Below, piece after piece: positions 15,686-52,158 of a DNA stretch of 64,000 nt; the first letter of the stretch is position 1; each line of letters starts with the position of its first letter. A program made the translations under genes and the position numbers. The DNA comes from Arcticibacter pallidicorallinus. Lineage in GTDB: Bacteria > Bacteroidota > Bacteroidia > Sphingobacteriales > Sphingobacteriaceae. The notes beneath the pieces were generated by a model. That model was not told where the DNA came from. It made no database searches and was given only the letters and a program-made list of their open reading frames with translations. Location: assembly GCF_003002875.1 (NCBI RefSeq), contig NZ_PVTH01000004.1:124001-188000 (forward strand), in the 5' to 3' direction.

Positions 15686-15699
15686 TGCCAACGTTTGCA
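15686..15699. promoter_or_regulatory. LacI-family operator in front of xylBA
   Basis: TGCCAACGTTTGCA is a near-perfect palindrome with a central CG; only one symmetric pair is broken. It matches the usual LacI/GalR operator form TGnAAnCGnTTnCA. It sits 23 bases before the xylB ATG, and a near-consensus minus-7 sequence for xylB (TACAATTG, reverse strand 15700-15707) directly abuts it. A repressor bound here would cover the xylB transcription start. Confidence 0.75.
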
Positions 15700-15784
15700 C
15701 AATTGTAGAAATAAATTATGATATTAGAAAAATATATTTTTAAAAACATTTCAGCTTATCAATACCTTCGGCGCTGAGCGAGCT

Positions 15785-48118: not shown

Positions 48119-49978
48119 ATGAACGAATCACTTGGAGAAGTACATTCCTCTGTAATTACTGCCGGCAAAAAAGGCTGGCGGAAGCTCTTATCATTTTTGG
48201 GACCCGCATACTTGGTCAGTGTTGGTTATATGGACCCTGGCAACTGGGCAACCGACCTCGCCGGAGGCAGCCAGTTTGGATACCAACTGATCTGGGTGTT
48301 GCTGATGTCTAATTTAATCGCACTCCTTTTGCAGTCGCTCAGCGTGCGTCTGGGCGTAGTTCAGGGGCTCGATCTGGCGCAAGCATCAAGAAATGCTTAT
48401 CCTAAATGGGCCAACTTTCCGCTGTTTATACTTGCGCAGATCGCTATCATAGCCTGCGACCTCGCGGAGATTATTGGTATGGCTATCGGACTGAACCTCC
48501 TGTTTGGTCTCCCAATGATTTGGGGCGTTTCCATTACCATCCTCGATACAGTCTTGTTACTCTTTCTGTTAAACAAGGGAATGCAGGTCATGGAAAGCTT
48601 TATCCTTTCTATGGTCTTTATTGTAGGTCTTTCATTCCTGGTGGAAATGTTCATCATCGAACCTGAAATGAAAGACGTCATCGGCGGTTTAGAACCCTCC
48701 ATGCTGAGTGGCGACGCATTATACATCGCCATCGGAATACTGGGCGCAACAGTCATGCCCCATAATCTTTATCTCCATTCCTCCCTGGTTCAGACCAGAA
48801 AGATCGAAAGAACGAGCAAAGGCATCAAGGAATCGCTGAAGTACAACCTAATCGACACCAGCATTGCGTTGAACCTGGCCTTCTTCGTAAATGCGTCCAT
48901 ATTGATCCTTGCAGCTACCGCCTTTCACAAAAATGGCTACTTCGAAGTCGCGGAAATCCAGGATGCACATAAGTTGCTCGACAATATCTTTGGATCCCTT
49001 GCTCCTGCCCTTTTTGCTATCGCGTTGATTGCCGCTGGACAGAGTTCTACCGTTACCGGAACTTTAGCCGGACAAATAATAATGGAAGGCCATATCAAGC
49101 TTCGCATTCAACCCTGGCTCAGGCGGCTGCTCACGCGCTTGCTGGCTATCATCCCCGCATTTTTTACCATACTTTACTTCGGCGAGGGAGCATTGGGCGA
49201 ACTGCTTATCCTCAGTCAGGTCGTTCTTAGTCTGCAACTCGGTTTCGCCGTAATTCCACTGATCCATTTTACGTCAGATAAAAAGAAGATGGGTGAATTT
49301 GCCATTAAGCCCTGGGTGAAAGTTCTGGCCTGGCTGAGTGCTATCATCATTGTAAGCCTGAATATAAAACTCGTCTACGAAGAGATCTATGCATGGATGC
49401 ACACCAACAATAACTGGTGGTTATATATTTTCATCGTGCCCTTAGTTCTGGCAGTAATCGCCTTGCTGTTCTACGTGTCCTTCCATCCCTTCTTCAAAAC
49501 ACCGGCTATGATCCCTTCCAACGTTCCTCACGGAAAGGCACTGGAAATCCCGAGTGTCGAAAATGTTTCTTACACTGCCATTGGTATTCCTGTAGACTTT
49601 TCCAAGAATGATAAAGCCACGATCGAGCATGCTCTTATGCAGGGGGGCAAGAATGCCAACTACTTTCTTATCCATATCGTCGAAACAGCCGGAGCACGCT
49701 ATCATGGAGACACGGTTATGGACTTTGAGACAAAGAGTGATACTGATAACCTCGACATATATCGTCTCAATCTGGAGAAGTTAGGCTACAATGCTCAGAT
49801 ACGTGTAGGTTATGGGAACGTGGCGCCGGCAATTGTGAAACTGACAATCGATAACCAGCTTGATTTATTGGTTATGGGAGCACATGGCCATCAAACGATG
49901 AAAGACATGATCTTTGGCACAACCGTAAATGCGGTGAGGCACCGGATTAAGATACCTATTCTGATCGTAAGAGAATAA
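48119..49978 (+). CDS. Nramp divalent-metal transporter with C-terminal UspA domain
   Basis: A 619-residue inner-membrane transporter for Mn2+ or Fe2+, driven by protons. The Nramp metal-site motifs are present: DPGN at residues 39-42 (SVGYMDPGNWATDLAGG) and the MPHN-type site in GATVMPHNLYLHSS. About eleven transmembrane segments end near residue 455. The C-terminal 150 residues are a universal-stress-protein domain with the nucleotide-binding pattern VMGAHGHQTMKDMIFGTTV. Bacterial MntH is usually about 410-450 residues, so this is a fusion, though of a kind known in Bacteroidota. The UspA domain may sense nucleotides or stress. Confidence 0.93.
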   Translation: MNESLGEVHSSVITAGKKGWRKLLSFLGPAYLVSVGYMDPGNWATDLAGGSQFGYQLIWVLLMSNLIALLLQSLSVRLGVVQGLDLAQASRNAYPKWANFPLFILAQIAIIACDLAEIIGMAIGLNLLFGLPMIWGVSITILDTVLLLFLLNKGMQVMESFILSMVFIVGLSFLVEMFIIEPEMKDVIGGLEPSMLSGDALYIAIGILGATVMPHNLYLHSSLVQTRKIERTSKGIKESLKYNLIDTSIALNLAFFVNASILILAATAFHKNGYFEVAEIQDAHKLLDNIFGSLAPALFAIALIAAGQSSTVTGTLAGQIIMEGHIKLRIQPWLRRLLTRLLAIIPAFFTILYFGEGALGELLILSQVVLSLQLGFAVIPLIHFTSDKKKMGEFAIKPWVKVLAWLSAIIIVSLNIKLVYEEIYAWMHTNNNWWLYIFIVPLVLAVIALLFYVSFHPFFKTPAMIPSNVPHGKALEIPSVENVSYTAIGIPVDFSKNDKATIEHALMQGGKNANYFLIHIVETAGARYHGDTVMDFETKSDTDNLDIYRLNLEKLGYNAQIRVGYGNVAPAIVKLTIDNQLDLLVMGAHGHQTMKDMIFGTTVNAVRHRIKIPILIVRE

Positions 49979-49981
49979 ATC

Positions 49982-50593
49982 CTACTTCAAATAATTCATC
50001 ACTTCGCGGTTACTCAGCTCCTTTTTGATGTCTATATATCCCGGATAGGAAACTTTCTGGTCCGCTACAATAATATTCGGCTTAATTTTCAGTGTAATAG
50101 TGACTGATGTATCTTTTGAAGCAGAAAAGAAGTCAGCCAGTACACGTTGATTCTCAGGTTTAGAAATGACGGGATATATATCCGTATTTATAGCGAAAGG
50201 CACCACCACTTCAGCTCCGTTAGCCGGCACTAATATCGCCTGCTCATAAACGCCACGGAGTAATTCATAATCTGCCAGCATCAGTATATATTCAAAATCG
50301 TTTATACCGGCGTCTTCCGTTCCCGGATTGCTAATTCCCAGATCAAGGCGCGCTTTCAAGGGAACTTTCTGCTGCAAGAAGGCGAAAGCAAGCTGCGGAG
50401 CCCGGCTTATGTTAAATCCGCTCTTCCCTACCAACCGGTCAGCGGGAACGTTAGCAATATAAACACTGTCTATAGAATTGACCCCAAAGACACAGTACTG
50501 AAGGGCTTCCAGCTGATTAACCTGAGTCTTCAGCCCACAAGAGAAAACAGAAACAACAAAGAGGAATGTAAAAATGATCCGGGAATATTTCAT
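49982..50593 (-). CDS. Hypothetical lipoprotein
   Basis: A 203-residue protein starting MKYSRIIFTFLFVVSVFSCG, a lipoprotein signal with lipobox VFSC. The rest is beta-rich (VYIANVPADRLVGK, PLKARLDLGISNPGTEDAGI, VPFAINTDIYPV), somewhat like LEA14-type domains, but I do not claim this. I use the ATG at 50593; a TTG at 50608 would overlap the upstream stop and add a charged extension before the signal. It is 11 bases downstream of the AraC-type gene on the same strand and probably co-transcribed with it. Confidence 0.7.
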   Translation of the reverse strand: MKYSRIIFTFLFVVSVFSCGLKTQVNQLEALQYCVFGVNSIDSVYIANVPADRLVGKSGFNISRAPQLAFAFLQQKVPLKARLDLGISNPGTEDAGINDFEYILMLADYELLRGVYEQAILVPANGAEVVVPFAINTDIYPVISKPENQRVLADFFSASKDTSVTITLKIKPNIIVADQKVSYPGYIDIKKELSNREVMNYLK

Positions 50594-50604
50594 TACGTCT
50601 TTTT

Positions 50605-51177
50605 TCAAATGGCGTCGAGAGGAATGCGGTTATCGCGCTTATGCTGCATGGCCTTAAACTGTCCGGGTGTATAAGATGTTACGCGCTTAAACTGCGTCGA
50701 AAGATGCGCAGCACTGCTATAGCCAAGCGTATAAGCTATTTCTTTTAAACTAAGTTCATTATAGCATAGCAGCTCTTTAACACGCTCAGCCTTCTGCCTG
50801 ATGATATATTTTTCAATGGTTATACCCTCCGTGGCAGAGAATAAAGTACTCAGGTAATTGTAGTCATGAGACAGGGAATCGGCTATCATTGCAGACCAGT
50901 TCCATCGTCTCACAGCGTCAGCCTGATGGAAGATGGTATCGATGATCAAGGTCTTGATACCTTCCACAAGCCTGTTCTGGCCACTGTCAATCAGTTCGAA
51001 ACCCTGAGACTGGAGCGCCCTGGCTATATCCGCGATCTTAACGTTGTCAACAACACTGCCTATCCGCGCGTGACCCAATACGACCGATTCAATAAGCAGG
51101 CCCTGTTCTTCAATGATCTGCCTGACGGCTGATATACAACGCGGACAAACCATATTTTTAATGTAGATCTCTGTCAT
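50605..51177 (-). CDS. AraC-type regulator with N-terminal CxxC (HMA-like) domain
   Basis: A 190-residue protein. Residues 1-70 resemble a heavy-metal-associated fold: MTEIYIKNMVCPRCISAVRQ carries the metal-binding-like C11-x-x-C14, followed by a beta-alpha-beta pattern. The C-terminal 100 residues are an AraC helix-turn-helix (ELSLKEIAYTLGYSSAAHLS, then FKRVTSYTPGQFKA). It is short for AraC proteins and has no sugar-binding cupin. Metal- or redox-responsive control is inferred from the CxxC only. A lipoprotein gene follows on the same strand. Confidence 0.82.
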   Translation of the reverse strand: MTEIYIKNMVCPRCISAVRQIIEEQGLLIESVVLGHARIGSVVDNVKIADIARALQSQGFELIDSGQNRLVEGIKTLIIDTIFHQADAVRRWNWSAMIADSLSHDYNYLSTLFSATEGITIEKYIIRQKAERVKELLCYNELSLKEIAYTLGYSSAAHLSTQFKRVTSYTPGQFKAMQHKRDNRIPLDAI

Positions 51178-51239
51178 ACGGATAAGCTGGACTTATTATT
51201 ATTATAATTACATAACGAAGAAAACGTTTTCTATGTACT

Positions 51240-51689
51240 TCAGAATGATTTGATCATCTGAATATGTTCAATCCCATCTTCATCATATACATCGCTGCTC
51301 CTAACGAACCCAAACTTCTCATAAAATTTTTCAGCGTATAACTGGGCGCCGATTTTAACAGGGCGGTTTCCAAGCAAATCCTCCAGGTCCGATAAAATCA
51401 GCTTCATCATCATAGCGCCAACCCCCTTCCCCCGGTAATTGGCGTGCGTCAGGATACGTCCTATTGAAGCTTCTTTGTACGCTATGCCCGGTGGAATGAT
51501 CCTCGCATACGCAATCAGACGACCTTCATCATACATCATCAGATGATGGCACTGCCCATCCAGATGATCCAGGTCCTGATAGGCACATCTCTGTTCAACG
51601 ATAAACACTTCATTGCGAAGCTGTAATATCTGATAGAGTTGCTCGAGACTGAGATCCTGAAACCTCTTTGTTATCTTGATATATGACAT
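51240..51689 (-). CDS. ElaA-type GNAT acetyltransferase
   Basis: A 149-residue acetyl-CoA-dependent N-acetyltransferase. It has LYQILQLRNEVFIVEQRCAY at the N-terminus, the ElaA hallmark, then acetyl-CoA-binding GRILTHANYRGKGVGAMMM with the RGKGVG pyrophosphate loop and the C-terminal IGAQLYAEKFYEKFGF. The substrate is unknown. It starts nine bases after the MarR gene on the same strand and is likely co-transcribed. Confidence 0.92.
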   Translation of the reverse strand: MSYIKITKRFQDLSLEQLYQILQLRNEVFIVEQRCAYQDLDHLDGQCHHLMMYDEGRLIAYARIIPPGIAYKEASIGRILTHANYRGKGVGAMMMKLILSDLEDLLGNRPVKIGAQLYAEKFYEKFGFVRSSDVYDEDGIEHIQMIKSF

Positions 51690-51697
51690 TGCCGAAA

Positions 51698-52132
51698 TTA
51701 ACCGTTATAATCTGTAATACGTTGCAGCAAGGGTAAAAATGCCTTAATTAATGCAAGTTCTTCATTTGAGAATACTTCTGACATCGCTTTGGCGAGCCAC
51801 TCCTCTTTTATACGCCGGGTTTCGGCCAACATCGTAGAGCCCTTCTCCGTCAGAGAGATCACAACCTTACGTTTATCCGTCTCTATATAATTCCGCTGAA
51901 CATATCCCGCTTCAAACAAACGATTGATAGTTTGAGATATTGCTTGCTTGGATACTCGTTCCAGATCGGCCAGATCGGATGGCAACAGTGCGCCATACTG
52001 GTCCAGCAAAGCCATCGTCAAAATCTCGCTATTGGAGAAATCTGTACGGATATTCTGCTTTCTAATTTGCCTCGTCAGCCTTGTAGCAACGCTTCGTAAT
52101 TGAGCGGCTAATTCATAATCCGGGTATCCCAT
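51698..52132 (-). CDS. MarR-family transcriptional regulator
   Basis: A 144-residue winged-helix repressor: a core with LTMALLDQYGALLPSDLADL, a recognition helix in SKQAISQTINRLFEAGYV, and the wing ETDKRKVVISLTEKG, flanked by dimerisation helices. MarR proteins respond to small aromatic ligands. I use the ATG at 52132; a TTG at 52153 would lie in the promoter box. It is divergent from an MFS exporter with a palindrome between them, the usual arrangement for a repressor and its target. Confidence 0.9.
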   Translation of the reverse strand: MGYPDYELAAQLRSVATRLTRQIRKQNIRTDFSNSEILTMALLDQYGALLPSDLADLERVSKQAISQTINRLFEAGYVQRNYIETDKRKVVISLTEKGSTMLAETRRIKEEWLAKAMSEVFSNEELALIKAFLPLLQRITDYNG

Positions 52133-52150
52133 AACAATCAAACTACACTG

Positions 52151-52158
52151 CAAAGGTA
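52151..52158 (-). promoter_or_regulatory. Minus-7 box for the MarR gene
   Basis: The reverse strand reads TACCTTTG, an exact consensus match, 18 bases before the ATG at 52132. Confidence 0.6.

Follow-up and report, generated by a model that had tools for sequence, protein, structure and literature searches.

What an AraC-type regulator carrying a CxxC-bearing, HMA-like N-terminal domain would sense, and which genes it would control, is the question raised by this locus. The HMA-AraC regulator gene occupies positions 50605..51177 of the window (the whole 64,000-nucleotide stretch of DNA analysed here). Its open reading frame, proposed in the initial annotation, is real and lies on the minus strand, which that annotation had left unstated. 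It encodes a protein of 190 amino acids with MTEIYIKNMVCPRCIS as its N-terminus, and in its own genome (G000, a draft of 4.1 Mb in 23 contigs) this was the only match covering the N-terminal domain. The reading that we favour, with a probability of about two in three for the whole chain, is that its product is a Cu(I) sensor of the one-component type, activating copper export in trans.

The proposed division into an HMA-like N-terminal domain and a minimal AraC unit was upheld by AlphaFold2, Foldseek, a sequence profile and the HTH models of Pfam. The AraC-type DNA-binding unit (two HTHs, residues 94-182, 50632..50898, minus strand) was recognised by Pfam (HTH_18, 59 bits with a cut-off of 33.6, residues 99-176; HTH_AraC, 51.9 bits with a cut-off of 26.6), appeared in the AlphaFold2 model and aligned with AraC-family units in VIA-align (Z up to 14.7). 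A helix connects it to the sensor domain (residues 66-84, 50926..50982, minus strand; H66-84 in the AlphaFold2 secondary structure). The HMA-like sensor domain, of CopZ/ATX1 fold, comprises residues 1-65 (50983..51177, minus strand), and the two cysteines are placed as first described, the C11-P-R-C14 codons (51136..51147, minus strand) marking the predicted Cu(I) site. For residues 1-67 the AlphaFold2 model (mean pLDDT 91.5, compared to 88.9 for the whole protein) was ferredoxin-like, as had been anticipated from the sequence, with the βαββαβ order of HMA domains (E2-7 H12-23 E29-33 E36-39 H45-57 E61-63). The M-x-C-x-x-C of the protein sits at the β1-α1 loop, which is its placement in HMA domains and CopZ.

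The top Foldseek match was CopZ (2qif; TM 0.73/0.72) with a modest E value of 3.2e-3, and no match to residues 1-67 was obtained at E≤0.001. VIA-align gave CopZ a Z of 8.4 (2.4-2.5 Å across 63-64 residues). Fold similarity by itself would be no proof of an HMA domain, because ACT-type ferredoxin folds (AcuB) scored nearly as high as CopZ with both programs. Pfam HMA (PF00403) had no match in the window protein at E≤1 and matched 7 of the 47 aligned members at E≤0.01; the other 40, the window protein included, gave no match. The CsoR-family model PF02583 was likewise without a match in the window protein at E≤1. A profile made from the 47 sequences (window protein included) did match, within positions 2-61, the HMA domains of copper ATPases as well as CopZ (2ew9, E 1.1e-5; 1k0v, E 1.2e-4). 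Judged from sequence, the domain is best assigned to the HMA type, and it is the position of the CxxC and this profile match that do most of the work.

The combination of domains had been called unusual, and it is not: HMA-AraC matches were present in 140 of the 296 genomes sampled across Bacteroidota (E≤1e-20) and in 49 of the 61 genomes of its own family (E≤1e-25), the own genome being included in both counts, and they started at residues 1-7 among the matches listed. Scanning GTDB contigs gave 376 confirmed coding stretches, the best 80 of which included Ignavibacteriota and Chlorobiota bins. M9, V10, C11, R13, C14, G35 and F60 were invariant in 111/111 aligned sequences (own included), a figure biased upward by the alignment being made of near relatives. 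Residue 168 is S in the window protein and G in the other 110. The initial annotation had looked to conservation of the cysteines in homologues; this held throughout the alignment, but not in three divergent paralogues, namely L153 (9403-10023; MVSVRC, first Cys lost), L154 (9671-10231; MVSVRC with an interrupted frame) and L150 (contig C1 of the sister genome G343, near 1417901; MISLSC, motif lost). These paralogues are perhaps decaying copies.

Examination of the neighbours of homologues, which had also been suggested, showed that copper-export genes are usual beside the relatives, supporting a metal role, most likely copper. Members of seven clusters judged metal-linked by sequence were located within five genes of the regulator in 44 of 59 named loci (those flanked by 5 kb or more on each side), a mixed ATPase/HMA cluster accounting for 42 of the 59. 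The largest neighbour cluster (81 proteins from 72 loci) contains ATPases, other HMA proteins and ORFs cut at locus ends. As this cluster is mixed, the frequency of ATPases was taken from the motif-verified count: a CPx-ATPase was present in the flanks of 35 of 70 well-flanked loci, while our estimate of the chance expectation is about 1% (a few ATPases per 4-5 Mb genome). The commonest neighbour was a Cu-type ATPase. In relatives, copA follows an HMA-AraC gene directly (G309) or about 0.6 kb further on (G296). The HMA-AraC family very probably regulates copper export.

The same neighbourhoods bear on two other readings of the sensor. It might bind Zn(II), Ag(I), Hg(II) or several soft metals instead of Cu(I), as CxxC domains bind several soft metals and the neighbours include some ATPases classed as Zn-type by a motif rule, CDF-like transporters (by eye) and SO_0444-like permeases. 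We consider this unlikely, given that the Cu-type ATPase predominates and that the copA of G000 passes TIGR01511 with 617.9 bits (cut-off 397); in addition, the aspartate typical of ZntA-like domains is not present before the CxxC of HMA-AraC. CxxC pairs can also be redox-active, and the motif might be a disulphide switch and not a metal site; however, its fold, the position of its M-x-C-x-x-C and its copper-gene neighbours match metallochaperones, making such a switch very improbable.

A candidate operator, AATNNTNYAA-N11-AATNNTRTAA, emerged from an alignment of genus copA upstreams against a sister genome; it is a 31-bp direct repeat with half-sites 21 bp apart. TATRTAA cores separated by a gap of 14 occurred in 8 of 62 copA-type upstreams with at most one mismatch (0.0 in shuffles) and in 18 of 62 with at most two (1.2 in shuffles). 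At other gaps between 10 and 18 the only signal, a weaker one, came from gap 12 (9 vs. 1.6 at up to two mismatches). When each of 18 clusters was left out in turn (matrices with one site per cluster), the held-out cluster scored above all 200 shuffles in 16 cases; these clusters were drawn from the 49 of 62 regions scoring above 11 with the first matrix, 13 regions having been dropped beforehand. The 49/62 itself is the score of a matrix on its own training set, is circular and was not counted as evidence.

In many loci the site is located just behind the regulator. Downstream of the regulator stop, 53 of 121 homologues scored at least 18 bits, and in 37 of these 53 the site started between -10 and +9 nt relative to that stop. 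Outside the training regions, a site of at least 15 bits was found just behind the regulator in 32 of 77 loci and in 0/77 in reversed DNA; two of the 77 proved identical in DNA to training regions, and without them the count is 30 of 75. Autoregulation was considered and rejected, as a site upstream of the regulator reached 18 bits in 1/122 and 15 bits in 2/122. There was little signal at gap 14 in the regulator upstreams (6/122 vs. 2.8), and k-mer enrichment in the same regions gave no clear operator; the enriched k-mer CAAAGGTA is the complement of TAnnTTTG. A TAnnTTTG-like box, TAnnTTTG being the -7 element of Bacteroidota promoters, was present 21-22 bp past the site in 52 of 57 cases (17 exact, 35 with one mismatch). 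The predicted operator consequently abuts the -33 position, which favours activation over repression. The genes behind the site, identified partly by eye, encode copper ATPases, CopZ-like proteins, HMA membrane proteins, permeases, a HYC-like protein and a CusA-like pump; 50 of 54 matched a CopZ model and 27 of 54 a Cu-ATPase model at E≤1e-5. One of the 54 (L151) looks like a glycosyltransferase.

The operator might belong to another regulator and sit behind HMA-AraC only through the shared company of copper genes. Twenty genomes without an HMA-AraC match (E≤1e-20), 17 of which have copA-like ATPases, served as the negative control, and here 0/33 CPx-ATPase upstreams scored above 1.6 (29 distinct, uncut regions, as two were cut by a locus end and two were repeats of the same promoter). 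The low-scoring control upstreams included three with a copA 54-65% identical. This absence, together with a site located directly behind HMA-AraC and before several different kinds of metal genes, makes a different owner very unlikely. By contrast, all seven nearest copA upstreams of the genus and its close relatives scored 20.4-28.2, several of them having served to find the motif. Ten more distant ATPases of these genomes scored 5.6 or less within 300 nt; for one of them, from G312, a 22.1-bit site lies beyond that distance, ahead of an 84-aa ORF. Random pieces of 330 nt reached 15 bits in 0.88% of 2491 cases.

The half-site plus box, allowing one mismatch, showed no clear excess over the backwards control genome-wide, except in G000 at 21 bp (15 vs. 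3), and we therefore relied on exact matches and on the second half-site. In the three sister genomes (G330, G312 and G343), exact half-site plus box was found at copA in each. Of the remaining exact matches there, one was located behind a paralogue in G343 (23.0), one in G312 ahead of both the 84-aa ORF and the ATPase (22.1), and all others scored below 15.

In G000, the single match covering the length of HMA-AraC is located apart from copper genes; the copA-chaperone pair is on another contig (C8), with no regulator beside it. The exact half-site followed at 21-22 bp by TAnnTTTG occurred three times in the 4.1 Mb: at the copA promoter (matrix score 22.9), at the promoter of a HYC_CC_PP-Cus efflux operon on contig C2 (17.6) and inside a coding gene (-3.9). 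The small protein of this Cus operon passes the HYC_CC_PP cut-off. The matrix was applied in G000 to pattern matches (all 42 of one search, plus the located matches of the exact and one-mismatch searches), and five of those scored reached 15 bits, with the box present only at copA and HYC-Cus. The three without a box scored 18.9 (within open frames) and, twice, 16.9. Since the highest of these outscores the HYC-Cus site, much of the HYC-Cus prediction depends on the box. One site-like match of 16.9 bits is in the window itself (15695-15725, minus strand) and was treated as chance, having no -7 box; flanking it are a kinase-like gene and, in divergent orientation, a LacI-like gene (both by eye). 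The CusA-like pump behind the predicted operator on contig C2 (L301, 2652-5895) reads in two adjacent frames, so that the gene is either broken or misassembled.

A search of G000 for CsoR-family genes gave none. As a second HMA-AraC gene was not detected either, control of copA and HYC-Cus is, within the HMA-AraC and CsoR families covered, best assigned to the window gene. It is on this ground that we infer an action of this copy on the two operators of G000.

At the locus itself the genes are co-directional: a MarR-family gene recognised by Pfam (51698..52153, minus strand) starts the run and is followed by a GNAT acetyltransferase gene (51240..51689, minus strand), the HMA-AraC gene in third position and a lipoprotein gene (49982..50593, minus strand). 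The GNAT gene adjoins the regulator in G330 and G312 too, and the MarR gene adjoins the regulator run in G330 too. The lipoprotein gene, with its ATG 11 nt past the regulator stop, is probably a co-transcribed operon partner; it adjoins the regulator in 4/4 genus genomes examined (own included), with identities of 66, 64 and 43% in the three sister genomes. The lipoprotein has a weak likeness to Pfam LEA_2 (E 0.021, below the cut-off). The initial annotation had named this gene as a possible target. The operator scores do not point that way: no operator was found upstream of the window regulator (best score -2.5) or downstream of it, before the lipoprotein gene (best score -3.3), and it is the distant copper-efflux promoters that carry the operator.

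This arrangement is the main ground for a further alternative, in which copper regulation is the function of the family at large, whereas the window lineage has taken on a new one: it would respond to thiol/redox state or to a metal other than copper and would govern the lipoprotein operon, another protein running copA and Cus. In the genus genomes examined it is the lipoprotein gene, rather than any copper gene, that has stayed linked to the regulator, with GNAT and MarR kept as well in G330. In addition, the window protein is divergent (end branch of 0.72 in a quick tree). It groups there with the G330 and G312 copies (support 98), a grouping not shown for the syntenic G343 copy. A genome of the window's family pairs with Pedobacter puniceum in this tree, from which the family is probably Sphingobacteriaceae. 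Further HMA-AraC paralogues are present in G330, G312 and G343, and the window lineage could have another job in these three genomes. In G000, however, the window gene is the sole HMA-AraC found, and yet copA and HYC-Cus both retain the family operator together with an exact -7 box; MVCxRC is intact and there is no operator-like site before the lipoprotein gene. We consequently regard repurposing as improbable and retain the copper sensor acting in trans as the preferred reading.

In the mechanism that we propose, the HMA domain would bind Cu(I) through C11 and C14, possibly receiving the metal from the 68-aa CopZ-like chaperone whose gene adjoins copA. Loading with Cu(I) would enable the AraC unit to bind the 31-bp direct repeat, whose half-sites would be on one face of the DNA. 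The bound repeat would be just upstream of the TAnnTTTG -7 box, and RNA polymerase would be recruited as by a MarA/SoxS-type activator. The target adjoins the regulator in many relatives, while in G000 the protein would act in trans on the copA-chaperone and HYC_CC_PP-Cus promoters. Extended to the phylum, HMA-AraC could be the sensor by which Bacteroidota in general perceive copper (relatives also occur in Ignavibacteriota and Chlorobiota bins), one in which a metallochaperone fold serves as the sensor of a one-component activator, Cu(I) passes directly from chaperone to regulator and a conserved 31-bp direct repeat replaces the -33 element; we put this generalisation forward only tentatively.

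The sensor domain resembles CopZ/ATX1/HMA domains (PF00403; PDB 2qif, 2ew9) in its βαββαβ fold, in the CxxC at the start of helix 1 and in the profile match, but differs in having MVCxRC with an invariant Arg, a fused DNA-binding unit and scores mostly below Pfam HMA. The DNA-binding part is the two-HTH unit of MarA/SoxS/Rob and other AraC-family proteins, whereas the sensor is HMA-like instead of a cupin, Rob-type or receiver domain. In class II activators the operator abuts the -33 region, as predicted for HMA-AraC. Ada-type AraC proteins also join an AraC unit to a cysteine-based N-terminal Zn/Cys module; this module is a methyl-phosphotriester acceptor, with an unrelated fold and targets. 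CueR, CsoR, CopY and CusRS control copA or Cus-type genes in response to copper, which is the role predicted here, and they belong to other folds: MerR (CueR), four-helix (CsoR), winged helix (CopY) and two-component (CusRS). The CsoR family was present in 4 of the 20 HMA-AraC genomes searched.

Both modules are of known types and their fusion is common in genomes, and HMA-AraC would be a variant of one-component metal sensors whose description we did not find. A search of titles and abstract openings in the open-access literature listed no paper on an HMA-AraC regulator, and passages of PMC10434189, PMC10710014 and PMC9240420 do not treat a regulator of this type. Copper sensing in most Bacteroidota appears undescribed in the open-access literature searched. 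If our reading is true, one small protein family would explain the control of copper export in about half of the sampled phylum. It would also provide a ready-made operator for reporters and regulon mapping, and a new sensor fold for the AraC family, with a possible Cu(I) handover from a chaperone to a transcription factor.

Several further observations were made on the family and on the locus. In 45 of 123 tree rows, including 9 of the 10 Pontibacter rows, there was no operator in the DNA covered, many of those loci being short. A Pontibacter clade (L102, L078, L095, L097, L098, L104 and L108) had neither copper neighbours nor operator in the DNA covered, and its members are perhaps trans-acting like the window copy. 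Between the GNAT and HMA-AraC genes there is a palindrome-rich segment, ACATAACGAAGAAAACGTTTTCTATGT (window 51210-51236), with no counterpart in the syntenic locus of either G330 or G312. The operator-like palindrome GAAAACGTTTTC (51220-51231), upstream of HMA-AraC, was dropped as a candidate, being absent from the same two loci. On the other side of the run, convergent with the lipoprotein gene, lies a gene for an Nramp transporter with a C-terminal universal-stress (Usp) domain (48119-49978, plus strand), and this Nramp-Usp gene is the same neighbour in all three sister genomes.
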